Assembly: GCA_001803235.1 (NCBI GenBank) | Contig: MHBL01000195.1 | Span: forward strand, 1-64,000 | From: Lentisphaerae bacterium RIFOXYA12_64_32 | Lineage (GTDB): Bacteria > Verrucomicrobiota > Lentisphaeria > Oligosphaerales > YB12-FULL-65-16 | DNA length: 64,000 nt | Direction of reading: 5' to 3' | Shown: piece after piece, positions 27,632 to 41,324 of the stretch | Layout: each line of letters begins with the position of its first letter | Numbering within the stretch: position 1 is the stretch's first letter | The notes under the pieces: model-generated | The model's input: only the letters and a program-made list of their open reading frames with translations | Database searches by the model: none | What the model was told of the DNA's origin: nothing | Program-made: the position numbers and the translations under genes

Positions 27632-30602
27632 CGAGCTTCTGGAATGGTATGTCGTTCATGTACCGGACGAAGATCTCCTCGTTCTGGTCCATGCGCTCCA
27701 TGAACAGCGTCTCCAAGAGGTTCTTGAACACCAGTTCGAACTTGTCGCCCGGGTTCACCGCGGCGGCCTGCTTGAGTGCGTCGTCCGCAATGGCGGCTTC
27801 GACGATCTGATCGAAGAAGAGCTGGTCCGCCTGGTTGAAGTCCGTGCCGAACCGGGCGTTCACCAGGTCGATCAGACGCGACAAGGGGACTGGATCCTCA
27901 TGCACCGCGCCGGTCCCCACCTCGGACGGCCCATCGAGCGGGCGCCCGTAACCCTCGTCCAGGGTGATTGAGCCTTCGCTGATCTTCTGCAGGCGGTAGT
28001 ACTCCAGCCGCACCTCATCGTCGAACTGGTACGCCGGCCCGCCCCGGCGTTTCGGCAGTTTCGGCGCGAGGTGACGCAGAAAGACGTATAGTTTCTCCAG
28101 ATCGCTATCCTGGTAGGGAATGACCTGGCTGAGGAAACCGTAGAGATTGCGGAACGCCTGGAGTTTGCCTCGCCACAGTTCGGCTTTGTCCTCTTCTTCT
28201 TTCTGGAGCGCACTGAAACGCGACACAGCCGGATCCAGGGCGGCATTCATCGCCTGGTGATCTGCGGCACTCTGCTTCTGCCGGGACTTGAAGTAGATCG
28301 CACAGAAGCGCTCCAACTCCTCCGGCAAGTATGTGCCCGATGCGTCCAGTTCTCCCTTGATCTCGTACAGGCGCGCCGGGTCGACTTCCTGCCCCATCTC
28401 CGCGCCTTCGTAGTAGGTCTTGAAGGCATCGTGGATCTCGTCGCGGTCGTTGACGAAGTCCAGGACAAACGTGTCCTCTTTGAACGGGTGCGTGCGGTTC
28501 AGCCGCGACAGTGTCTGCACGGCCTGGATGCCTGCAAGGCGCTTGTCCACGTACATGGTGTGCAGCAGCGGCTGGTCGAATCCGGTCTGATACTTCTCGG
28601 CAACCAGCAGGACATGGTACTCCTGCGAGGCGAACCGCTCCGGCAATTCCTTCTCGCGGATGCCCTGGTTCATGCCCTCCTCGGTGTAGGTCACGTCTTT
28701 GAGTTTGTCGTCCTGCACGGTTCCGGAGAAGGCCACCAGCGTCTTGATCGGATAGCCCTTCTTCTTGATGTAACCGTCGAAGCCTTGCTTGTAACGCACG
28801 GCCTCAAGCCGCGAACCAGTCACCACCATGGCTTTGGCCCGGCCACCAATCTTGTGCCGGGTGCTGGCGTTGAAGTGCTCGACCATTATCTCGGTCTTCT
28901 GAGCGATGTTGTGCGGGTGCAGCTTGAGGAAGCGCGCCAGTGCCCTGGCCGCCTTCTTACGCTCCACGTTCGGGTCGTCCTCGCAGGCCTTCAGGAGTTT
29001 GAAGTAAGTGGCGTAGGTGGTGTAGTGCTTCAGCACGTCGAGGATGAAGCCTTCGTCGATGGCCTGGCGCATGGTGTAGCGATGGAATGGCTCGCCACTC
29101 CGTCCGAACACGGCAAGGGTCTTGTGCTTCGGCGTGGCCGTGAACGCGAAAAAGCTGAGGTTCGCCTGCCGGCCGCGCTTGGCCATGCTGCGGAAGAGTT
29201 CCTCCATGTCGCTCATTCCCTCTTCCTCGGCGCGCTTCTTAGCCGCAGTCCTTAACGCCTCGCCGCCGAGTACCCCCTTTAGGTCGGTCGCCGTTTCGCC
29301 GCCCTGCGAACTGTGCGCTTCGTCGATGATAACGGCACAGCGTCGTGTCGGCAGTGTGCCTGAACCTTCGGCCCCCCGCTCTTTCGCCATCTTGAGCAGA
29401 TGCCGCGAGACGAACGGGAATTTCTGGAGGGTAGTGATGATCACCGGTACGGCGTTCTCCAAAGCCTCCGCCAATTGCCGGGACTTCTCGTCGATCCTCT
29501 GCACCACGCCACGCTTGTGCTCAAACTGGTAGATCGTGTCCTGCAACTGCTGGTCCAGCACGACCCGGTCGGTCACCACGATGACGCTGTCGAAGACTCG
29601 CTGGTTCTTCGTATCGTGCAACGAGGCCAGTCGATGGGCCAGCCAGCCAATGGTGTTGCTCTTGCCGCTGCCGGCCGAGTGCTCGACCAAGTAGTTGTGT
29701 CCCACGCCCTCGCTGCGCGCCGCTTCGACCAGAGTGCGCACGGCCTGAAGCTGGTGGTAGCGCGGGAAGATCATTGCCTCCCGCTTCACCTTGTGGCCCT
29801 GTTCGTCGCGCTTCTCCTCGATCTGGAGGTGGATGAAGCGCGCCAACAGGTCCAGGAAGCTGTCACGTTGCAGGACTTCTTCCCACAGGTAGGCGGTGCG
29901 ATAGGTACGGCCGGCCGGATCGGGCGGATTCCCGGCGCCGCCGTTGCAGCCCTTGTTGAACGGCAGGAAGTGCGTAGCCGAACCGGCCAGCCGCGTGGTC
30001 ATGAAGACCGCTTCAGTGTCCACGGCGAAGTGCACCAACGTGCGGCGCTTGAACTCGAAAATGGTCTCGCGCGGGTCGCGATCCTGTCTGTACTGCCGGC
30101 ACGCGTCCTCCACCGTCTGGACCGTCAGCGGGTTCTTGAGCTCCAACGTGGCAACAGGGATACCGTTCAGAGTGAAGGTCACGTCGAGCGACTGCTCCGT
30201 CCGCGGCGAAAAGTGAAGCTGCCGGGTGAGACCGACCCGGTTGGCCACGTAGCGCGCCTCGAGTTCCGGATTGAGTTCGTGGGCCGCCTTGAAGAACGCG
30301 ACCCGCAGCGTCCGCCCGTAGCATTTGAACCCGTGGCGCAGCGTGGCCAGGGAGCCGTTGCTGTCCATCCACTTGCACAAGTCAACGATGACCTGCTCAC
30401 CGGTCTTGGCCCCGTGCAACGCCTCCAACTTAGCCCATTCCTTCGGCTGCGTGTCGCGGATAAAGTCCAGCACGACGCCAGGAAAGATCGCCCGCTCCCG
30501 GTCGAACCCGCCAGGTGCGACCTGGACATACCCTCGCTCCAATAGATATCTCTCGAGCACAGTCTCGAATGCTCGTTCCGTGTGAACTGCCCCGTTCGTC
30601 AT
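27540..30602 (-). CDS. hsdR: Type I restriction endonuclease R subunit
   Basis: VEHSAGSGKSNTIGWLA Walker A, IIDEAHSSQ DEAH, FTATP, ATLELKNPLTVQTVEDACRQYR nuclease region. Confidence 0.96.
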   Translation of the reverse strand: MTNGAVHTERAFETVLERYLLERGYVQVAPGGFDRERAIFPGVVLDFIRDTQPKEWAKLEALHGAKTGEQVIVDLCKWMDSNGSLATLRHGFKCYGRTLRVAFFKAAHELNPELEARYVANRVGLTRQLHFSPRTEQSLDVTFTLNGIPVATLELKNPLTVQTVEDACRQYRQDRDPRETIFEFKRRTLVHFAVDTEAVFMTTRLAGSATHFLPFNKGCNGGAGNPPDPAGRTYRTAYLWEEVLQRDSFLDLLARFIHLQIEEKRDEQGHKVKREAMIFPRYHQLQAVRTLVEAARSEGVGHNYLVEHSAGSGKSNTIGWLAHRLASLHDTKNQRVFDSVIVVTDRVVLDQQLQDTIYQFEHKRGVVQRIDEKSRQLAEALENAVPVIITTLQKFPFVSRHLLKMAKERGAEGSGTLPTRRCAVIIDEAHSSQGGETATDLKGVLGGEALRTAAKKRAEEEGMSDMEELFRSMAKRGRQANLSFFAFTATPKHKTLAVFGRSGEPFHRYTMRQAIDEGFILDVLKHYTTYATYFKLLKACEDDPNVERKKAARALARFLKLHPHNIAQKTEIMVEHFNASTRHKIGGRAKAMVVTGSRLEAVRYKQGFDGYIKKKGYPIKTLVAFSGTVQDDKLKDVTYTEEGMNQGIREKELPERFASQEYHVLLVAEKYQTGFDQPLLHTMYVDKRLAGIQAVQTLSRLNRTHPFKEDTFVLDFVNDRDEIHDAFKTYYEGAEMGQEVDPARLYEIKGELDASGTYLPEELERFCAIYFKSRQKQSAADHQAMNAALDPAVSRFSALQKEEEDKAELWRGKLQAFRNLYGFLSQVIPYQDSDLEKLYVFLRHLAPKLPKRRGGPAYQFDDEVRLEYYRLQKISEGSITLDEGYGRPLDGPSEVGTGAVHEDPVPLSRLIDLVNARFGTDFNQADQLFFDQIVEAAIADDALKQAAAVNPGDKFELVFKNLLETLFMERMDQNEEIFVRYMNDIPFQKLVTTWLASQAYQKLRNVSNGRCRLSSPPPPR

Positions 30603-31108
30603 GGTCGTCCCTTCGCCTCCCAACGCCGCAAACGCTCGTTGCATTCCCCAGCCGGAAGAAAACTGCCGCCGTCCATGAGCGTCCGCAGGTGAGTCGCGGC
30701 CGCGCCGGGAACCAAGAGCCGACGTTCCACGAGTCTGTCCAACACCCACAATACGCCCCGGACCTCGATTTTCTCCGCCGCGGCCGCCTTGCGTAACGCC
30801 TGGTCTCCTGAGAGCAGGGCCGCGCCAAGTCGCTTGGCCAACGCAAGTGCAGACGCGTCCGCCAGGCTGACCCTCAACCGGACCGAAACACCCTGGACAG
30901 ACGACAACTCCTCGGGGGACAGTTCCACCACGCGCAACAGGCCGGCGTTCACGAAGTTGTCGAGGATCCGGCGCTGCGTCGGCTCCTGCACTTCATACCG
31001 CACCAGATCCGTTGTGTGTGTCTCAATACCAAGACGGAACCACAGCGGCAGCAGGTCCGCCTCAATGAGGTCGATCAGGATGTTGGCGTCTTTGACTGCG
31101 ACTCTCAT
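30599..31108 (-). CDS. PIN-domain (DUF3368-like) putative toxin
   Basis: VAVKDANILIDLIEADLL, ADASALALAKRLGAALLSGDQALRKAA; stop overlaps hsdR start. Confidence 0.75.
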   Translation of the reverse strand: MRVAVKDANILIDLIEADLLPLWFRLGIETHTTDLVRYEVQEPTQRRILDNFVNAGLLRVVELSPEELSSVQGVSVRLRVSLADASALALAKRLGAALLSGDQALRKAAAAEKIEVRGVLWVLDRLVERRLLVPGAAATHLRTLMDGGSFLPAGECNERLRRWEAKGRP

Positions 31109-31114
31109 GAGACC

Positions 31115-32179
31115 TCACGCGATGACTTCCTTCAGGTCGCGGCGGAAGGAATTGAGGTCCTGCTTGAGAAGGGCCGCCCCCTTGGACAGGCTGATCTGTT
31201 GCTCGGCCACCGCACGCCAAACGAGTTGCCGGAAACGACTGGGCGTCTCGTCGCCGTTGTAGCAGTCGTCGCCTGGCTCGCCTTGGCCAGGCTTCCGCCA
31301 TCCCTGCTGACTGGCGTAGCGACAGAACCGTTCGAACATCGCTACCGACACCAACTCGAGCTGCTCGGCCCGTTTCATGATGGCCATGATGGACGCGCCA
31401 AAGGTCAGTTTCAACTCGATCAACTCGCGCAACCCGACGCCGTTACGGCACTTGCCAAACGCGTCCGTGAACGCCTCTCGCGGAAGCAGGAAGGCTCCGG
31501 CGAAACGTCTGACGATCGCCTCCTCCAGCTTCTCGTCGTCCGGCAGCGGCAGAACCACATGTGCCAACTCGTGGGTGCTGGTCATGCGTCTGCGCGGGAG
31601 GTTTGTGGTCGCCCCGAGAACCACCAGTGGCCCGGCGTCGGTGGCCGCGCAGAAGCCATCCAGGTCCGGGCCGACGTCCAACTCACAGACTTTGATGCTT
31701 TTGGACTCCAGGAGCCCCACGACACTTGGGATGGGGTCGTTCCCGAGGTCCCAGGCCTCGCGCAGTTCGCACGCCGCCGCTTCGGCCTGGTCCGGCAGGG
31801 AGAGAGTGGCACGGTCCGGCAACGGCGGCACAAAGGTGCGCACATCCCCGGCCAATTCCTCGGCTTCACAGAAGCGCTCGACGAAGTCGGCGGCTTGCTC
31901 GCGTGCGGCCTCAGCCTTGCCCCCGGTCAGTCGCGCCTTCTTGCGGAACCGGACTTCCCCCAGTTGTACCGTGAACGGACGGAAAAAGAAGTCGGTCGAC
32001 TGTCCAAGTGCCTCTGCCACGGCGAGCAGGATCGGGCTGCCCGGCGACATCTCGCCGCGCTCGTACCGGGCCAGCGCGTTGTGCGAGACCTTGCCGCCGG
32101 TCGCGTCAGCCAGCGCCCGCAGAGACAGACGGCGCATGATACGCGCCTGCCGCAAGCGTTGCCCGAAAACGGTGTCCAT
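31115..32179 (-). CDS. XRE-family HTH + ImmA/IrrE metallopeptidase-domain protein
   Basis: N-terminal HTH GQRLRQARIMRRLSLRALADATGGKVSHNALARYERG; zinc-peptidase motif STHELAHVVL. Confidence 0.9.
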   Translation of the reverse strand: MDTVFGQRLRQARIMRRLSLRALADATGGKVSHNALARYERGEMSPGSPILLAVAEALGQSTDFFFRPFTVQLGEVRFRKKARLTGGKAEAAREQAADFVERFCEAEELAGDVRTFVPPLPDRATLSLPDQAEAAACELREAWDLGNDPIPSVVGLLESKSIKVCELDVGPDLDGFCAATDAGPLVVLGATTNLPRRRMTSTHELAHVVLPLPDDEKLEEAIVRRFAGAFLLPREAFTDAFGKCRNGVGLRELIELKLTFGASIMAIMKRAEQLELVSVAMFERFCRYASQQGWRKPGQGEPGDDCYNGDETPSRFRQLVWRAVAEQQISLSKGAALLKQDLNSFRRDLKEVIA

Positions 32180-32194
32180 GGCGCCCTCCACCAT

Positions 32195-32231
32195 GTTTAC
32201 AGAAATGGGAAAGTAGTTGACTTCTGTAAAC
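32195..32231. promoter_or_regulatory. putative operator palindrome GTTTACAGAA-N17-TTCTGTAAAC in the xre/DUF2188 divergent intergenic region
   Basis: perfect 10 bp inverted repeat adjacent to the XRE start; TATAGT-like (-) and TTGACT (+) promoter hexamers nearby. Confidence 0.55.
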
Positions 32232-32441
32232 ACTATAGCATATTACTGGTAGAAAAGAAAGAGCCGGCGTGACGTTTGCACCGCCAAGCCGGCTCTGGCC
32301 TCCAGAAAATGCCCCTCTTGGAGGGACGATGGCCGGAGGCCGTGGTACGCGAAGACAAGACCGTAACATGGCCGTAGCCGGACCGGAGTCAAGCGCAACC
32401 TGCGCCGCGGGGCACGAACCCAACATGGAAGGAGTTTGATC

Positions 32442-32666
32442 ATGCGATCAAGCAACCTGCATGTGGTGCCGCACGGGTCCGACTGGGCCGTCCGCCGCGA
32501 AGGTGCATCCCGCGTTTCGTCCACGCACGGAACGCAGGGCGCTGCCGAATCGGCGGCCCGGCGCGTTGCCATCCGCGAAGGCGGGGAGACGTTCACCCAC
32601 CGCCCGACCGGCCCGATCCGTGACCGCAACAGCTACGGGAACGACCCGTTCCCGCCACGCGGCTGA
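32442..32666 (+). CDS. DUF2188 domain-containing small protein
   Basis: LHVVPHGSDWAVRREGASRVSSTHGTQGAAESAARRVAIREGGETFTHRPTGPIRDRNSYGNDPFPPRG. Confidence 0.85.
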   Translation: MRSSNLHVVPHGSDWAVRREGASRVSSTHGTQGAAESAARRVAIREGGETFTHRPTGPIRDRNSYGNDPFPPRG

Positions 32667-32709
32667 TGCTGGCACCCCACAGGCGGAGCCGTCGAAAGGC
32701 GGCTCCGCT
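32568..32709. repeat. ~142 bp direct repeat, copy 1 (3' half of DUF2188 gene plus terminator-like hairpin)
   Basis: near identical to 34870-35012. Confidence 0.9.
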
Positions 32710-32771
32710 CTTCTCCCGACTTCTCGCTGGGTTCGTTCCCTTGCCATGGTCCAAGGTCGGGCACGGCTGGA

Positions 32772-33020
32772 CTACTTGCGCCACTGGTTTGTGGCTCTTC
32801 GACGCCGTCCGGTTCTACGCATATCATTGCGATAGCGGATGGTTCCCTCCGCATCCGGCAACGGGATGGGGTAGTGCCTTTTCTCGTAGTCCTCGACCAG
32901 GTGCACCCAGAGCACCAGTCCGTCCCCTTCGGGCGTCCCCGGGCGCGCGGACATCAGTTTGTCTACCCGAGCCAGGGCCGCTTCGTAGTCCGCTTCCGTC
33001 TTGATGGGTCTCGGAGGCAT
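32772..33020 (-). CDS. HigA-like antitoxin N-terminal fragment (no HTH)
   Basis: IKTEADYEAALARVDKLMSARPGTPEGDGLVLWVHLVEDYEKRHYPIPLPDAEGTIRYRNDM. Confidence 0.5.
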   Translation of the reverse strand: MPPRPIKTEADYEAALARVDKLMSARPGTPEGDGLVLWVHLVEDYEKRHYPIPLPDAEGTIRYRNDMRRTGRRRRATNQWRK

Positions 33021-33024
33021 CAGA

Positions 33025-33190
33025 TCACCTGTACGTCGGGCTTGCCGTGCTCCCTATGGGTTCCCCTTTCGGTGAAATCTGTGCCGGACAAGCCAACCTG
33101 CCCGTCACCGCGGCGCGGAAAAGAGCGGCGCGGTGTTTCTTGTGCAGGGCGATGGGGCGCCCGGCCAACGCACGTCCCCGACGGACTTCC
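33025..33190 (-). pseudogene. remnant of an HsdS C-terminus
   Basis: minus-strand reading ALAGRPIALHKKHRAALFRAAVTGRLACPAQISPKGEP resembles RTIALLKERRAALIAAAVTGRMGLSP of the intact hsdS in this window. Confidence 0.65.
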
Positions 33191-33238
33191 CCGTCTCGGC
33201 TGTCGTCGCATGGCTCCTGGGGGCAGGCGGTAGCCCGC

Positions 33239-34384
33239 TCAAGCCGGCTCGTGCTCAGTCAGGTAGAGTGTACGGACCTCGCGGCCGCTCCCCTGGAGTT
33301 CCTCGATCTCCTCAATGCACGTGAACCGGTATGCGCCTTCGATTTTGAGGCCAGCCAGACCGGGACCTCCAGCTTTGATCGTCCCAGAGAACTCCCGCTC
33401 CTCTGATGCTATCCGCCATGCCCCGCTGTCAACATCCGCCTTCTTCAGAGCGCCGACTATCACGACGGTTTCGGCTCCGAGATTCGACACACTCGAAAGC
33501 AGGTCCACCAGCGGCCCCGCTTCCGCCTCGGACACCGCTCGCGCGCGTGATTCGGTGAAGGCCGGTTCCGCCCATGAGTAGCGCAGTCCGCTTCTCGTGT
33601 GCACCAGGAAGCGGAGCAGACGCAAATACGCCCCCGCCAAGTGGCCCCGATGAGACTTCGCCATCGCGAGCGTCTTCTGTGGGTCCCCGACGTGTTCGAA
33701 AAGCCCGTCGACGCGTTGCAACGCACGCGCCAACTCGCTTTGACCGAGCAGATCAGGCGAACGTGCAGCCTCCAAGACCACGCGGAAAGAGCCTGCCGCC
33801 GCCGGTACCACAACGTCCAGCAAGTGCGCGTCCGAGCGGTCAATGGAACGCCGTGTTCCCGGTGACAAGTCTCGCAAGGCCGCACCGTAGGCATGCTTGA
33901 CGATCGTCTGGACATGCCCAAGCAGACCAACGAGCGTATCGACCCGGATGCGATGCTCCTGCGCAGCCTCGGGCGGTTCTACGGCAACCTCCAAGACCAA
34001 GTTGTTTCGGGCTCGTGCTTCACGGACGGTTTCCTCGGCAGCGGGCCGGTCGTGGAGGACGAACCCGCCTTCGGGAAGATGCTGGCAGTCAGCCAGTGGC
34101 GTGCTCTGAGGTTGGAGAACCATCGGAGCATCAAGGCTATCCCCCGGCAGGCCGTAGAACCACTCTTCCTCTCCACGTTCCAGTAGCAGCGTGCGTAAGT
34201 CGAGTGCGCCCATCCGGAACTGTCTCAGCCGCTCCGGCTCCACGCCCGCTACGAGATAACGGTCCAGCCCGTCTACGGACTCCACCATCATGGCAATGTA
34301 ATAGCCGCCGATGGCGTCCCGGGCCTCGAAGACCTGGAGTCCGTCGTAGTAGAATAGCGTCCCCGTGTGGCGAATCTTCTTCAT
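33239..34384 (-). CDS. hypothetical protein, 381 aa, second gene of a two-gene unknown module
   Basis: long ORF with 4-nt ATGA overlap to upstream gene; no confident family. Confidence 0.75.
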   Translation of the reverse strand: MKKIRHTGTLFYYDGLQVFEARDAIGGYYIAMMVESVDGLDRYLVAGVEPERLRQFRMGALDLRTLLLERGEEEWFYGLPGDSLDAPMVLQPQSTPLADCQHLPEGGFVLHDRPAAEETVREARARNNLVLEVAVEPPEAAQEHRIRVDTLVGLLGHVQTIVKHAYGAALRDLSPGTRRSIDRSDAHLLDVVVPAAAGSFRVVLEAARSPDLLGQSELARALQRVDGLFEHVGDPQKTLAMAKSHRGHLAGAYLRLLRFLVHTRSGLRYSWAEPAFTESRARAVSEAEAGPLVDLLSSVSNLGAETVVIVGALKKADVDSGAWRIASEEREFSGTIKAGGPGLAGLKIEGAYRFTCIEEIEELQGSGREVRTLYLTEHEPA

Positions 34385-34755
34385 GATGCCTCAACGCTGC
34401 AGTTGGACAGGACGTCAAATCCTTGGTAAGGCCACCATGTATGGTGCGAAGGACGCCCGGTCTGTTGGATGCGTCCCGCCCCAATCGCCAGACGCACGCG
34501 ACAGATCAGGCGGTTCCGCAGCGTCGGAAGCTTCCGAGCCTTGTCGCAATCCTGCCGCGCGGAGAACACCGAAAGGCCGCGTGCCTGGCACTCGGATACA
34601 CGGAAAACAGTTTTCGGTTGTTCAGCCCGCTGCGACCGGAAATCCGCCTCTTGCGGCCGATTCGCGCGCACGAGGCGGAAAACGACACGCTCCGCGGAAA
34701 TCTCTTCCGCCTCGCTCGGAGGGCATCCATCCGGCAATGGTTCGCGATAGTCCAT
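34381..34755 (-). CDS. hypothetical protein, 124 aa, first gene of the module
   Basis: EPLPDGCPPSEAEEI...VFRLVRANRPQEADFRSQRAEQP...VSECQARGLSVF...PSHHTWWPYQGFDVL; 4-nt overlap with downstream gene. Confidence 0.75.
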   Translation of the reverse strand: MDYREPLPDGCPPSEAEEISAERVVFRLVRANRPQEADFRSQRAEQPKTVFRVSECQARGLSVFSARQDCDKARKLPTLRNRLICRVRLAIGAGRIQQTGRPSHHTWWPYQGFDVLSNCSVEAS

Positions 34756-34869
34756 GGTGATCGTAAGCTATCTGGTGCGGCACGGAATTGCCAACTGTCC
34801 CCTCGCCACGCCCCGGGCGGCGCGGCCTTCCTTGAACAACCCCATGGCCATTCCGCAGTACCCCTCACG

Positions 34870-35012
34870 GCCATGCGCGAAGGCGGGGAGACGTTCATCC
34901 ACCGCGCGACCGGCCCAATCCGTGACCGCAACAGCTACGCGAACGACCCGTTCCCGCCACGCGGCTGATGCTGGCACCCCCACAGGCGGAGCCGTCGAAA
35001 GGCGGCTCCGCT
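34870..35012. repeat. ~143 bp direct repeat, copy 2 (DUF2188 3' remnant plus hairpin)
   Basis: GGETFIHRATGPIRDRNSYANDPFPPRG and following hairpin duplicate 32568-32709. Confidence 0.9.
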
Positions 35013-35030
35013 TCTGTCTGCAAATGGCCC

Positions 35031-35966
35031 TTACGTGTCAAGACGGGGCAGAGCCGACGCGCTCTTCGCCGCGTTTGTCCAGTGGCTGATCTTGTCAACC
35101 AGATCCGGCGTGAGATTGTCGCAGAAGTCAACAAGCCGGCAGCGATCCAGCAATATGCCCGCTTCAGTGCATTTGCCCTTCCATCGAGCACGGTCCGCCG
35201 CTTCAGAGATGCAGAAGGCGCGAATCGGACTAACGACGATAGTCCCCTTCATCCACTTCTTGATGAATGCATCTGGCTGAAGTTGAGTGGTTAATCCACC
35301 CCAGTTTGACCCTGTCTTGCACTGTCCGAACACGATCAGTTGGCCGGGAAGGAGATCGGAGAAAGGCACCCATGCCACCGCGTCGAGTTTATCATCATTG
35401 GCATCCACGGGGGCATCGTCCAGACTCTCAAAACCGACGCCTTCGTGCAACTCGGCGCACAGTCGTTCAATTTTCGCTTGGAAGGTCCCGCCGACAGATG
35501 TGCCGAAAACAGAGGTGTGCGCGCGTGAGTAACCGAGATAGTTCCGCAACACGTTCGCGGCAACTTCCTCCAAGAGGTTAGCTCCATCAATCCCAGCATG
35601 AATACGATTGTCCTTCATGTTCAACCGCGTTCCCAACAGTAGGTACCGGTACAGTACCGATCGGATGCCAGCACTACCGGCCTCGTGGCGGAGTACTGTG
35701 CCCTGATGATCGAGGCGAAACGGATAGCCACCCCCGCAGGCAGATGCACGACGCTCGATCTCGTTCATGACCTCATCAAGGAACGCGGAGTTCTCATCAT
35801 CGTCATCGTCACATCCTGCGTTGTTGTCGTTGTCGTCAACGCGGCCAAGGCACGCCACGACTTCGCGTTTCGAAGCGGAACCGGCGTCCCAACTTAGCAG
35901 TTCGACAAAGTCGGCCAACTCATTGGAGTCTGCCTCGGGCGACGGAGGACTGGGTAACTTGAACAC
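35031..35966 (-). CDS. hypothetical protein, probable PD-(D/E)XK nuclease-like
   Basis: DDKLDAVAWVPFSDLLPGQLIVFGQCKTGSNW resembles a D...(D/E/Q)xK nuclease core; directly downstream of ParB-like gene. Confidence 0.6.
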   Translation of the reverse strand: MFKLPSPPSPEADSNELADFVELLSWDAGSASKREVVACLGRVDDNDNNAGCDDDDDENSAFLDEVMNEIERRASACGGGYPFRLDHQGTVLRHEAGSAGIRSVLYRYLLLGTRLNMKDNRIHAGIDGANLLEEVAANVLRNYLGYSRAHTSVFGTSVGGTFQAKIERLCAELHEGVGFESLDDAPVDANDDKLDAVAWVPFSDLLPGQLIVFGQCKTGSNWGGLTTQLQPDAFIKKWMKGTIVVSPIRAFCISEAADRARWKGKCTEAGILLDRCRLVDFCDNLTPDLVDKISHWTNAAKSASALPRLDT

Positions 35967-35967
35967 G

Positions 35968-37074
35968 CTACACCTCGGTGAGACGTGGCTGCTTCCTATC
36001 GGGGTTCAGTTTGCGGTCCATCTCGCGGTAGATATCGTCAGCCATGTTGGCGATGGTTCCGGCAATCCGGAGGAGTGCCTCCGACCTGTCATACCCCGCC
36101 GTGAGGTGGGCGCTTGCTGTAGTCAACTCGCGTTTGGCCGCCAGCAGCGCTTCCTCGAATACGGCGGTCGGTGGCCGGCTGATCTCGAAAGCCTTTGCGA
36201 GGTCCGGGCTAGCACGGAGGGCCGCGATGGCCTCACGGTTTGATAACACGGCATTCAACCGGCGAAGATCAGGATTCTGCGATTCGACGACCGGAGGTCG
36301 TTTCCCCTTCTTGCTTCCGTACAGCCATACGCACAGTTCCCCAAGTTCCTTGAGCTTCTCCTCGGGGACGGGGTTCTCCGCCTCTTCGTCTTCGGCCTTG
36401 AGGCTGATGAACGAACTGATGCCGTCGTAATCGAGGCCGGTGTACAGGTGGGAGAACGCGAGTCTTTGGCGGAACTTGTCATCGAGGTCGAACACTCCCG
36501 CTCGCTCGGCTTGCTCCAAAACCTTCAGTCCCCGGAACAAACGCTGCACGGTGCGATGGCGGTCGCCAATCTGGCTGGAGATGTCACTCAAAGAGGTCCC
36601 GTATGTGTGGTGAACGTCGGCGATGTACTTCGCCTTCGCGTAACTGCTCCACTTTGCTGGACCATTGACGTGTTTGAAACCAAGGTACCGCCAGGACTCC
36701 CCGCGAGTGGAAATGATGGCAGGCAGGACCCGCAATTGCTGGCGAGCGCCCGGCGTGATGATCGGGATGTCCCATCCGTTCCTCTTGGCAATCTGCTCAT
36801 CCAAGAGAACCTTGACTGCTGCGAGTCGGCGGTTTCCTTCGATGACGATGTTCTTCCCGTTTTCCTGCGCGACAATCACCGCTTCTTGCTGAAAGAAGCC
36901 GCTGGCCGCGATGGATTGGACCAGTTCCCTAATATCCATGACATCCCAAAGGAGAGCCAGAATGTCGTCATCGGTTGAACCCGCGGAAACACCATACTCG
37001 GCCAATCGCGGATTCTGGCGGTCGAAGCAAAGGTCCTTCACTGGGATCAACGTCGGTTCTGGCGTCGCTGTCAT
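35968..37074 (-). CDS. ParB N-terminal (ParB/Srx)-domain protein
   Basis: IPVKDLCFDRQNPRLAEYG, VQSIAASGFFQQEAVIVAQENGKNIVIEGNRRLAAVKVLL. Confidence 0.85.
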   Translation of the reverse strand: MTATPEPTLIPVKDLCFDRQNPRLAEYGVSAGSTDDDILALLWDVMDIRELVQSIAASGFFQQEAVIVAQENGKNIVIEGNRRLAAVKVLLDEQIAKRNGWDIPIITPGARQQLRVLPAIISTRGESWRYLGFKHVNGPAKWSSYAKAKYIADVHHTYGTSLSDISSQIGDRHRTVQRLFRGLKVLEQAERAGVFDLDDKFRQRLAFSHLYTGLDYDGISSFISLKAEDEEAENPVPEEKLKELGELCVWLYGSKKGKRPPVVESQNPDLRRLNAVLSNREAIAALRASPDLAKAFEISRPPTAVFEEALLAAKRELTTASAHLTAGYDRSEALLRIAGTIANMADDIYREMDRKLNPDRKQPRLTEV

Positions 37075-37982
37075 GTTGGAACCCTCGACTGCTTTGCGGT
37101 CAGCAAGAGACTTTCCTGTCCATGCACTCTGCATGCCTGCGGCAGGGCAACGTGGTCCGGGGCGATGATCAATTCCCTTGCGGCCCGTTTGTCTTGAAGA
37201 GTGTACCTGATCGGCAGGAAACGGACACTGAACCGGGCGTAAAGAGTCCGCACAAGGTCGCTGTCATCGTAGGACATGATCCACCGGAGTCCACGTAGCA
37301 ACTTAACATAGCGCGCCAATGCGATATGGTCTTCTTGTCTGTATGCATTCAGATACAGGCGTTGGCCGTTGTGGACATAGGGTGGATCGAGATAGACGAA
37401 CACCCGGGTTCGTCCCCTTCCACGCGGCAAACGGGCCTTCAGGAATTCTATCGCGTCCTCGTTCGATAGTTCGATCCGATCTCTCATCCGTGCTAGTGCA
37501 GCGATACGTTCACAGAGGGCATCGCGGTTAAAACGTACGTCCATCCGCCACTTGCCCTCTTGTGCGTGGCCACCAATAGGCCCCGATCCGGTCAGTACGC
37601 CCGAGCGATTGCAGCGGTTCATGAAAAACGCCGCAAACCCCACGTCAAACTGATCGTGCCCGCCTGTCGGGTTGGCGCAGATTGCATACTGCCGATGCCA
37701 TTCTTGGATCGTCAACGGCACCGAACGGATGTGTTCCATGAAACGCTCATGCGCATGCAGGACAGAGCACCAGAGAGCGTAGACCCGACGGTCTGCATCG
37801 TTCAGGTGGATCACAGATACGACATCACGTTTCAGGAGCCCCAGCGCGGCGCCAGCGCCACCGGCATAGGGCTCGAAATAGGCGCATCCCCTGAGGTCAT
37901 TCAAGTCAATAACGTCGGTCAGGAACCCGGTCAACCCGGCCTTGCCGCCTGGATACCGGAGTGGACTAGCGTACCTCATCAT
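37071..37982 (-). CDS. DNA adenine methylase, D12 class N6-adenine methyltransferase
   Basis: RYPGGKAGLTGFL, YFEPYAGGAGAALGLL, VYLDPPYV. Confidence 0.93.
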   Translation of the reverse strand: MMRYASPLRYPGGKAGLTGFLTDVIDLNDLRGCAYFEPYAGGAGAALGLLKRDVVSVIHLNDADRRVYALWCSVLHAHERFMEHIRSVPLTIQEWHRQYAICANPTGGHDQFDVGFAAFFMNRCNRSGVLTGSGPIGGHAQEGKWRMDVRFNRDALCERIAALARMRDRIELSNEDAIEFLKARLPRGRGRTRVFVYLDPPYVHNGQRLYLNAYRQEDHIALARYVKLLRGLRWIMSYDDSDLVRTLYARFSVRFLPIRYTLQDKRAARELIIAPDHVALPQACRVHGQESLLLTAKQSRVPT

Positions 37983-39288
37983 TGGCCTCCCCTGTCTCGG
38001 GAAGCATTTGGATTGGGGACAGTCCCATTCGTCCCGTCACCGCGGCGGCGATGAGAGCGGCGCGGCGTTCCTTGAGCAGGGCGATGGTTCGCTCGGCCGC
38101 GGCCCGCAGGGCGTCCAGTTTCGCGGTCTCGGTTGCGATGTGCGCCATGATGGCGCGTTGCTCCGCTAGGGGCGGGGCAGGGAACCACAACGCGAGGAAG
38201 TTCTCTGAGTAGAGCCGGAGGAAACCAGACGAACCCGTGCCCAAGCCGGTTGACTCGGATCGGAAGACGGCTTGTAGAAGCTCTGTCCTGAACAAGTGCG
38301 CACAGTAGTCCGGGGCGACCTCTGCCGAGACCTTGAAGACGGCGTAGTCCGGACTCACCAGACCCTCCCGGGGCGTGACGGCGATCAAACCACTCGACGC
38401 CCGCATCCGATTCACCACGATCTCGTTCGGAGACGTCTTCTTGTAGCCGACTAGTTCATCAGTTCGGGTTTCCTTCTCGGACACGTCGTTGTGTGGGACC
38501 AACCCGCGCTCCATTCGGAGGGACAGCAGGACTTCCTCCCCGGTTGTCGAGCGTTCGTCGCGCTCCGCGAACAGCCACTTCGCGCGCTTCAGGTCCCAAT
38601 GCTGCGGAATCGCCCCGAGCCAAGGTATTCCCGAGTCACGGGTCGGGGCGTTGGGGTTCAGGCCGCGGGTGACGGCGCGGGTGATGAGGGCGCGGCGCTT
38701 CTCGGCCAGCAGCCCGAGGAGCCGCTCCTTGGCTGCGACCAACCCGTCGATGCGCCCCGTCTCCCGGTCCAGGTAGGCGGCGATGGCGCGCTGGTCCGCG
38801 AGAGGAGGTATGGGTATCTCGGTGTCGCCGACCAACTCAGACTCCAGGCTCTCGACAGTGGTCCCCTCCTTGCTCCAGACACTCAAGAGCTCACGTTGGT
38901 GCCCCTCGATCAGTCGAGCTAGGTACCGCGGATCCAGGCCTGCCGTTGGTATCAGCGCTCGCATGTCCTGATTCAGGGTCACCGCCACACGGTTGATGGC
39001 CACAGGTATTGAGTGTTGCAGTATTCCCGAACGCATGACCATCAGGACTGCTCCGGGTTGTACCAAGTTGGTAGCGCTTTCCTCAAGCCCCTGTTCCGTG
39101 ACATGGTCTTCAGTGTCCAGAATCTCCGCCGTCTTCATGTCTTTTGGCGACACCCAGGGGATATCGCCATTCCAGTAGTCCCCATTCCCTTTGTCCGGTG
39201 TGCCTCCCCCTACGAAACGGCAGACGTGTTTCGTGCGGGCCCGCAACCAATGCTTGGGCGTCGTGACGTTCCAGCGGATGGTACTCAC
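37966..39288 (-). CDS. hsdS: Type I restriction-modification specificity subunit
   Basis: two TRD-like halves each followed by PPLADQRAIAAYLDRETGRID / PPLAEQRAIMAHIATETAKLD; GTG start overlaps hsdM stop. Confidence 0.94.
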   Translation of the reverse strand: MSTIRWNVTTPKHWLRARTKHVCRFVGGGTPDKGNGDYWNGDIPWVSPKDMKTAEILDTEDHVTEQGLEESATNLVQPGAVLMVMRSGILQHSIPVAINRVAVTLNQDMRALIPTAGLDPRYLARLIEGHQRELLSVWSKEGTTVESLESELVGDTEIPIPPLADQRAIAAYLDRETGRIDGLVAAKERLLGLLAEKRRALITRAVTRGLNPNAPTRDSGIPWLGAIPQHWDLKRAKWLFAERDERSTTGEEVLLSLRMERGLVPHNDVSEKETRTDELVGYKKTSPNEIVVNRMRASSGLIAVTPREGLVSPDYAVFKVSAEVAPDYCAHLFRTELLQAVFRSESTGLGTGSSGFLRLYSENFLALWFPAPPLAEQRAIMAHIATETAKLDALRAAAERTIALLKERRAALIAAAVTGRMGLSPIQMLPETGEANDEVR

Positions 39289-41324
39289 CGCGTCACCTCC
39301 CGCAGGAGTCGGAGGATGTCCTCCTCGGCCTGTTTGAGGTCGGCGTCGATGGCCTCCAGTGGGCGGGGCGGGGTGTATCGATAGAAGTGGCGATTGAAGT
39401 TGATCTCGTAACCGACCTTGTCCTTGGCGCGATCCATCCAGGCGTCGGGGACGTGCGGGCGGACTTCGCGTTCGAAGTAGGCGTCGACGTCGTCGCTGAG
39501 TGGCACGTTCTCGAAGTCGCGCAGGTCGGGGTCGGGCTCGAAAGTCACGGCTCGCGAGGCGCCCCCTCGACGGCGCTCGGGGCCTGCGGGTCGCCCTCCA
39601 GTGCTGGAGGCTTCGACCGGTGGGGCGCTTGGGTCTTTCTGGGTGAAGACGTTGCGGAAGAGTTTGTCTTCGGCCTTCTTCCATCCGGACCGGCGCTGGT
39701 GCAGCAGGTCCAGGATGCGCTCCCAGACGGCATTCCAGTCGCGTTGCGGTTCGCGGCCAAGGGTTTGGTCGATGGCCTGGATGTCGTCGAGCAGGTGCGG
39801 ACAGGCATCGAGGAAGCGTGCCTTGTCCTCGACCGTCATCCGGTAGCAGAGGCGCAGGGGTCGTTCGACCGTGACGCGGGCATAGCCAAAGTCAGTGTTG
39901 TCGAAGACCTTCGACGTGGCGGACTCCGCACACTTGCCGTACTCGCGGACGATCTCCGCAATCTGGTCGGGTTCGCCGTCCTGGCCTTCCCCGATCTTGC
40001 GGCGTTTGTCGCCCAGGCTGCGGCGCATGGGCACGTAGCGTTCCCGGGCGTCGACGAGCTGGATCTTGCCCTTCCGGTCCTTCGCTTTGCGATTGGTGAC
40101 GATCCAGACGTAGGTGCCGATGCCGGTGTTGTAGAACATCTGCTCGGGCAGCGCGATGATCGCCTCCAGCCAGTCGTTCTCAATGATCCACTTACGGATA
40201 TCGCTCTCGCCCGAACCGGCGCCACCAGTGAACAGCGGCGAGCCGCTGAACACGATGGCTAGGCGCGAACCGTGCTTGTGCTCAGCCGGCCGCACCGGCT
40301 CGAACTTGCTGATCATGTGCTGGAGAAACAGCAACGCGCCGTCGTTGACGCGTGGCAGGCCGGCGCCGAACCGGCCGGCGAAACCTGACTTGTCGTGCTC
40401 CTGCTCGATCTCCTTCTGCTGCTTCTTCCAGTCCACGCCGAAGGGCGGGTTCGCGAGCAGGTAGTCGTAGGTCTCGCCGGCGAACTGGTCCTCGGTGAAA
40501 CTGTCGCCGAAGCGGATGTTGTCGCCGCCGCCGTTGTGGTCCACCTGCTTCATGAGCATGTCGGCCGCGGCCGTGGCGAACGCGCGCTTGTTGTAGTCCT
40601 GGCCATAGACATAGAGCCGGGCCGCGGCATGGTGCTCGCGCAGGTAGTTCTGCGATTCGGCGAGCATGCCACCCGTGCCGCACGCGGGGTCGAGGAGTTT
40701 GCGGACCGTGCCCGGCGTCGCCAGGAGCTCATCGTCGTTGTTGAAGAGGATGCTGACCATGAGCCGGATGACCTCTCGCGGGGTGAAGTGGTCGCCAGCG
40801 GTCTCGTTGGCCAGTTCGTTGAAGCGGCGGATCAGATTCTCGAAGAGCAGTCCCATCTGCTCGTTCGGCACGGCATTCGGGTGCAGGTCCACGTCGCAGA
40901 ACTTCGAGACCACGAGGTAGAGGAGGTTCGCCTCGCGCATCTTCTCGACCTCGTTGGTGAACTCGAAGTACTCGAAGATGCGCCGGACATTGCCCGAGAA
41001 GCCATTGATGTAGCTGACCAAGTGTTTATCGATGTGGTCCGGGTCGCCCTTGAGCTTCTCGAACGTCAGCGGCGAGTGATTGTGGAAACGCTGCCCGGCC
41101 GCCCGGTTCAGGAGTTTGTCGAGTGCGTCGTCGTTGAGCTTCCCGCCCTGGCGTCGCGTGAGTTCAGCAAGGACCTTCTCCTTGGTTGGCGCGAGCACGC
41201 AGTCGAACCGGCGCAGCACGGTCATGGGCAGCATGACGCGTTCGTACTGCGGCGGGCGATACGGGCCGCGCAGCAAGTCGGCAATCTGCCAAATGAGGTT
41301 CGCGAGGTCGTGGTGGTCTGGCAT
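39285..41324 (-). CDS. hsdM: Type I restriction-modification DNA methyltransferase subunit
   Basis: DHFTPREVIRLMVSIL, LLDPACGTGGML, LLANPPFG. Confidence 0.96.
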   Translation of the reverse strand: MPDHHDLANLIWQIADLLRGPYRPPQYERVMLPMTVLRRFDCVLAPTKEKVLAELTRRQGGKLNDDALDKLLNRAAGQRFHNHSPLTFEKLKGDPDHIDKHLVSYINGFSGNVRRIFEYFEFTNEVEKMREANLLYLVVSKFCDVDLHPNAVPNEQMGLLFENLIRRFNELANETAGDHFTPREVIRLMVSILFNNDDELLATPGTVRKLLDPACGTGGMLAESQNYLREHHAAARLYVYGQDYNKRAFATAAADMLMKQVDHNGGGDNIRFGDSFTEDQFAGETYDYLLANPPFGVDWKKQQKEIEQEHDKSGFAGRFGAGLPRVNDGALLFLQHMISKFEPVRPAEHKHGSRLAIVFSGSPLFTGGAGSGESDIRKWIIENDWLEAIIALPEQMFYNTGIGTYVWIVTNRKAKDRKGKIQLVDARERYVPMRRSLGDKRRKIGEGQDGEPDQIAEIVREYGKCAESATSKVFDNTDFGYARVTVERPLRLCYRMTVEDKARFLDACPHLLDDIQAIDQTLGREPQRDWNAVWERILDLLHQRRSGWKKAEDKLFRNVFTQKDPSAPPVEASSTGGRPAGPERRRGGASRAVTFEPDPDLRDFENVPLSDDVDAYFEREVRPHVPDAWMDRAKDKVGYEINFNRHFYRYTPPRPLEAIDADLKQAEEDILRLLREVTR

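Follow-up and report, generated by a model that had tools for sequence, protein, structure and literature searches.

A ParB-type protein and a predicted PD-(D/E)XK nuclease form a constant gene pair beside exchangeable DNA-modification genes in bacteria and phages

Associations of a ParB-superfamily protein with a nuclease are already known from modification-based defence, where they are represented by SspE, DndI and GmrSD. PD-lambda-5, which has a ParB-type A protein and a methylase mostly of the D12 class in the loci that we saw, is a proven anti-phage system (Vassallo et al. 2022, PMC9519451). In IscS-DndBCDE-DndI and in SspE, a ParB-superfamily NTPase and a nuclease are paired with DNA modification, and phosphorothioate stimulates the ATPase of DndI and its release from self DNA (PMC11662687; PMC8092258). 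A survey of ParB-CTPases states that the Box II arginine is required for NTP binding and that ParB-type proteins may use ATP, GTP or CTP, a choice that the sequence does not tell (PMC12704722).

We analyzed a stretch of 64,000 nt from Lentisphaerae bacterium RIFOXYA12_64_32 (contig MHBL01000195.1), hereafter the window. It contains an overlapping operon on the minus strand composed of hsdM, hsdS, a D12 methylase (M), a ParB-like protein (A) and a 311-aa protein (B) (Table 1). The overlaps are of 4 nt (hsdM/hsdS), 17 nt (hsdS/M) and 4 nt (M/A), and A and B are separated by a gap of 1 nt. The gene order, coordinates, overlaps and gap reported in a first-pass annotation were all recovered from the open reading frames, and its hsdM, hsdS, D12 and hsdR calls were confirmed by Pfam and NCBIfam. 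The restriction gene hsdR is not an immediate neighbour of the M-A-B trio: DUF6575-like, XRE/M78 and PIN genes stand in between. We placed the start of A at the ATG at 37074, a longer frame opening at 37134 being less likely. In M, the motifs FEPYAGG and DPPY are both intact.

Table 1. Features of the operon and of the hsdS-hsdR interval in the window.
Feature	Position	Strand	Evidence or remark
hsdM, Type I methyltransferase (host operon)	39285..41324	-	N6_Mtase/HsdM_N (Pfam, NCBIfam)
hsdS, Type I specificity subunit (host operon of the module)	37966..39288	-	Methylase_S; GTG start at 39288
M, D12-class N6-adenine DNA methyltransferase	37071..37982	-	MethyltransfD12; PADLOC PD-Lambda-5_B, E 2.8e-99
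A, ParB-type protein, 368 aa	35968..37074	-	N-terminal NTPase with E-G-N-R-R box, HTH, helical C-terminus
B, predicted PD-(D/E)XK nuclease, 311 aa	35031..35966	-	D191, D195, Q215, K217; winged-helix-like N-terminal part
DUF6575-like gene, hsdS-hsdR slot	33239-34384	-	Other cargo
XRE/M78 RmrA-like gene, hsdS-hsdR slot	31115-32233	-	PADLOC RmrA, E 8e-43
PIN gene, hsdS-hsdR slot	30599-31108	-	Other cargo
hsdR, Type I restriction subunit (host operon)	27540..~30605	-	Pfam/NCBIfam HsdR; start inferred

The assignment of A as a ParB-domain protein in the first-pass annotation was upheld by the predicted fold, its sequence score against ParB_N being below threshold (E = 0.073). The fold matches of the model (pLDDT 92.2) cover both the NTPase and the HTH, and the 23 PDB matches with E < 1e-3 are all ParB, Noc, KorB or Spo0J proteins. 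Judged from this modelled fold, which is the decisive evidence, A is a complete ParB-type protein (NTPase plus HTH). In its Box II (EGNRR), E99, G100, N101 and R103 are invariant and R102 is nearly invariant; the box reads GNRR instead of GERR and keeps the phosphate-binding G-x-R-R pattern. ParB homology by itself does not prove that A uses an NTP. As regards a ParABS partition system, no gene resembling parA was noticed in the neighbourhoods inspected. The HTH is strongly conserved inside the D12 branch, even next to a replaced methylase, which suggests that A may not be the subunit that gives sequence specificity. The comparison of close pairs revealed no clear hypervariable block that would form a target-recognition region in A; variability was found at residues ~111-135 of A and at residues 45-100 and 160-180 of B.

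B had no match among the models of Pfam, NCBIfam and PADLOC and was recognized only by PHROG 14650/3984, of unknown function. The fold check proposed with the original nuclease call returned a confident PD-(D/E)XK-type model (AlphaFold2 with 67 sequences; pLDDT 90.8; pTM 0.91) whose best PDB match is MspJI (PDB 4f0p; Foldseek E = 5.9e-4; probability 1.00). The next-best matches include NgoMIV and the CRISPR nucleases Can2/Cdn1, and several weak ones are winged-helix proteins. The overall TM-score against MspJI is low (0.32), indicating that the core matches but the whole chain does not, and the B profile found no match up to E = 10 when compared with the sequences of the PDB. Among 70 diverse relatives, D195 is conserved in 69 and Q215 in 67. 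The lysine is found at position 217 only in 13 of these sequences and at position 225 only in 56, with one sequence presenting both and none presenting neither; because the position of the lysine clusters on the tree, these 70 sequences do not amount to 70 independent observations. Such a distribution is what a migrated catalytic lysine would give in a member of the PD-(D/E)XK superfamily. The D...Q part of the D...QxK core noted in the first-pass annotation is therefore conserved, but the QxK lysine is specific to the branch of the window and lies eight residues downstream elsewhere. With a REase core fold and an acidic residue, an (E/Q) and a lysine in the active site, B is predicted to be a PD-(D/E)XK nuclease, from which we infer that it cuts DNA.

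We then searched 84,980 genomes and 2.9 million viral contigs with A and obtained 114 loci, which yielded 76 non-redundant A-B pairs after near-copies were removed and a few pairs from other searches were added. B was found immediately downstream of A in 76/76 pairs, mostly overlapping it or at a distance of at most 14 nt, an arrangement that is not due to chance; the two outliers in spacing are an ORF-start artefact (locus L035) and a decayed copy (L011). A search with B, independent of A, in 388 genomes belonging to the phylum of the window detected four carriers, all four with A directly upstream, and searches of the viral contigs with the B proteins of L022 and of the window gave nothing further. 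The A-B unit thus recurs across bacteria and phages, and the constancy of A at every locus suggests that A is required. The M, A and B families occur together widely outside Type I restriction-modification loci, the co-occurrence that the first-pass annotation had proposed to look for. Its view of a self-contained methylase/ParB/nuclease module is thus supported by both of the checks that could have refuted it, the fold prediction for B and the search for co-occurrence.

The modification partner of A-B is variable. A methylase is located within 4.5 kb of 67 of the 76 pairs: D12 in 28, C5 in 33 and N4/N6 SPPY-type in 6. A D12, C5 or N4/N6 methylase was detected within 1 kb of 64/76 pairs, as compared with 35/362 control segments located at a distance of over 4 kb in these loci. 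Besides these methylase-linked loci, four loci present DndC/D/E or DndB-E genes. The phosphorothioation genes DndC, DndD and DndE-HerA lie just upstream of A-B in L029 and L036, and this DndE-HerA gene recurs in L026, together with the terminal part of a DndD-like gene located at the edge of the contig (assigned by scan in L029 and by sequence similarity in L026 and L036). In L132, which was found with B in a genome (G279) of the same class as the window's, dndB-C-D-E-like genes are convergent with B-A; these genes were recognized in the sequence itself, dndB through the DGQHR motif of its product. No full modification set is in view for L031, for the second pair of L002 or for L032, where the scan identified a convergent dndC only, and two of the remaining pairs are located at contig edges. 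On the A+B tree, pairs with the same class of partner group strongly together, with six changes for four classes, suggesting that each A+B lineage is adapted to one class, although switches have occurred. Exchange is also seen in the other direction: the E. coli phages Wphi and vB_EcoM-12474III share a methylase that is 97.8% identical, but the identity is only 32% between their A proteins and 25% between their B proteins. In L009, the D12 methylase has been replaced (25-32% identity) beside an A protein 55-71% identical to its relatives. The coupling of a methylase to the ParB-type protein and the nuclease therefore stands as an association, but the methylase is an exchangeable part and not a fixed partner. 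Finally, a phage contig (L002:1191-9594) carries two A-B pairs and one C5 methylase, the second pair having no methylase of its own; a 691-aa protein, Z1-like by eye, is encoded between the C5 methylase and the first pair.

The hsdS-hsdR interval of this Type I family (positions 30599-37982 of the window) behaves as a variable cargo slot. Depending on the locus, it contains Septu, XRE/M78 and PIN genes, the A-B-M trio, or nothing (window, L147, L006, L008 and L148). Two relatives with hsdM genes 73-75% identical to that of the window illustrate this variation: L148 presents an empty slot and L147 presents, as read by eye, a Septu-like ATPase/HNH pair with XRE/M78-like and PIN-like genes. The order is Septu-M-A-B-hsdR in L006 and L133 (ptuA/ptuB identified with PADLOC) and hsdS-M-A-B-hsdR in L008; in L134, A-B and an N4-type methylase are found close to another hsdM-hsdS. 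When the surrounding stretches were compared, the Type I genes of the window had no match around the remaining relatives of the trio, the close L005 among them, indicating that the trio is self-contained. The other cargo of the window presents features of its own. Two direct repeats (32568-32709 and 34870-35012; 111 nt at 95% identity and 35 nt at 100%), located 2.3 kb apart, bracket the DUF6575-like gene, which might thus have been inserted separately. DUF6575 is also found in one validated E. coli defence system (PMC9519451). An XRE/M78 protein followed by a PIN-domain protein (30599-32233) stands immediately ahead of hsdR, as does a similar-looking pair in L147, and might be a toxin-antitoxin or defence pair.

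In 5,426 complete genomes of E. coli, we identified the D12 version of the module in 20 genomes, the version of phage Wphi (C5) in 103 and the version of phage 12474 in 36. A P2-like prophage carries the D12 version at a site flanked by its replication and portal genes, where it is annotated as 'ParB N-terminal domain-containing protein / hypothetical protein / DNA adenine methylase'. For the pairs with estimable dS, dN/dS is ~0.02-0.09 for A, B and M, and these substitution rates indicate that the three genes are under strong purifying selection in E. coli P2-like prophages, Wphi included. In L012, M and A are kept and B is absent. The C5-type member of phage Wphi, which is carried by the laboratory strain E. 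coli W, corresponds to gp98-gp96-mth (L137, NC_005056, 96-3266), in which gp98 (A) and gp96 (B) are annotated without function. In 1967, Glover and Kerszman reportedly studied phage Wphi and the way in which lambda is restricted by E. coli W; if so, the A-B-mth genes of Wphi are an obvious candidate for this restriction.

These results suggest that the trio is probably a modular anti-phage system of the restriction-modification type, in which A+B constitutes the restriction half. M would mark the DNA of the host, and A would act as a ParB-type, NTP-dependent DNA-binding switch that loads on DNA or scans it. Where the mark is missing, A would license B to cut; the mark of the host would block the loading of A or trigger its release. 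This mechanism has a precedent in DndI, a ParB-superfamily NTPase plus nuclease that is spared by phosphorothioate, and PD-lambda-5 shows anti-phage activity with a related A protein and the same family of M. The target of the module would be phage DNA. More tentatively, A+B might be a restriction module indifferent to the chemistry of the mark: an NTP-gated ParB-type clamp would scan DNA and license a PD-(D/E)XK nuclease except where it encounters the mark of the host, and the module could be plugged into m6A, m4C, m5C or phosphorothioate systems.

It is also conceivable, if unlikely, that A+B is a back-up suicide effector kept off as long as M or the Dnd enzymes work. A phage that disables modification would then cause the destruction of host DNA, in a form of abortive infection or prophage addiction, and incoming DNA would not be cut selectively. 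PD-lambda-5 has indeed been described as a compacted 'RM+Abi' system, and many of the methylases in phage genomes are convergent with A-B. In the decayed copy L011, moreover, only the ends of the methylase remain after an internal deletion and A contains two in-frame stops, while B is still open, so that the loss of the methylase was accompanied by that of A in this single case. However, a suicide effector has no need of a DNA-reading ParB/HTH partner, and four kinds of modification partner favour the reading of a mark. Both modes could coexist in one system.

That the locus is simply PD-lambda-5, its nearest described system, with a neighbouring gene appears improbable. The full length of M is covered by the PD-Lambda-5_B model of PADLOC (E = 2.8e-99), which is its best description, and residues 1-256 of A align with PD-Lambda-5_A (HMM-HMM probability 99.9%; PADLOC E = 1e-16 over the N-terminal part only). 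The two also share carriage by prophages, and the related portion is the ParB-type NTPase/HTH half of the PD-lambda-5 A protein. This protein (about 430-520 aa) possesses a different C-terminal half that is missing from A; its C-terminus has no similarity to B in HMM-HMM comparison, and we rejected the possibility that it is an A-B fusion. In addition, the gene order of PD-lambda-5 is A-M, its loci contain no B gene whereas all A+B loci have B linked to A, and the partners of A+B also include C5 and Dnd genes. Two loci (L014:5475-10115 and L016:7959-12394) combine a PD-lambda-5-type A, an A+B pair and a single D12 methylase, which suggests that one methylase can serve two restriction halves.

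Slightly more improbable still is a modification-dependent (Type IV) nuclease directed against foreign modified DNA, with an adjoining methylase that is unrelated or protective by competition. MspJI, the best fold match of B, has a core of the same D...QxK type and is modification-dependent, with its own modified-base reader and activity on 5mC DNA, and the ParB-superfamily nucleases GmrSD and BrxU are of Type IV. However, a modification enzyme of the host itself adjoins A+B in nearly every locus, and the class of modification tracks the A+B phylogeny. It is hardly credible that A and B only regulate the methylase, as a ParB-like autorepressor and a degenerate nuclease fold with no role in restriction: the ParB relative DndB is reported as a transcriptional regulator, but the catalytic positions of B are conserved, with a lysine in 70/70 sequences, and M is convergent in many loci and not in the A-B transcript.

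The restriction-modification-type system that we favour differs from the other described systems. Like DndI, some A+B pairs appear to work beside Dnd genes. However, DndI and SspE are single proteins that combine a DUF262 domain with an HNH nuclease, whereas A+B consists of two proteins with a full ParB carrying an HTH and a PD-(D/E)XK nuclease, and has base methylases as partners too; no PADLOC or Pfam model of the Dnd/Ssp restriction modules (DndFGH, SspE, DndI) matched A or B. As in Type II restriction-modification, the methylase and the PD-(D/E)XK nuclease are encoded by separate genes, but A+B adds a constant ParB-type third protein and one restriction module pairs with several methylase classes and with phosphorothioation. 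The PADLOC candidate PDC-M38 has a protein with a related ParB-type N-terminal part (A versus PDC-M38A, E = 4e-22), which is fused to an SMC/AbiEii-like ATPase (L047), without B. We also rejected PDC-M38A (715 aa) as an A-B fusion, since it corresponds to a ParB plus an SMC-like ATPase. The combination of an A-type ParB domain with this ATPase in L047:1661-3835 would represent the same sensor with a third kind of effector.

We found no description of the A-B pair in the literature covered by our search, supplements and subscription journals being outside this coverage, so that an earlier description is possible. The accessible text of the ParB-CTPase survey (PMC12704722), of a reappraisal of Dnd systems (PMC10853773) and of a study of P2/P4 hotspots (PMC9122126) does not mention the pair. 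Nor did the databases and papers covered by our search yield a precedent for a separate ParB-HTH protein and PD-(D/E)XK nuclease that pair with four chemistries of modification.

Models of the B family are absent from Pfam, NCBIfam and PADLOC, and these loci are consequently reported today as orphan methylases plus a 'hypothetical protein'. Our results suggest that A+B looks like a general-purpose module for cutting unmarked DNA that has so far been nameless. A restriction enzyme is normally tied to a single methylase and a single site; the one restriction unit described here is found beside three classes of base methylation and beside phosphorothioation of the DNA backbone, and it can be exchanged next to a nearly unchanged methylase. 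ParB-type switches are familiar from chromosome segregation and, if the proposed mechanism is true, this module would show how such a switch tells self from non-self in defence.
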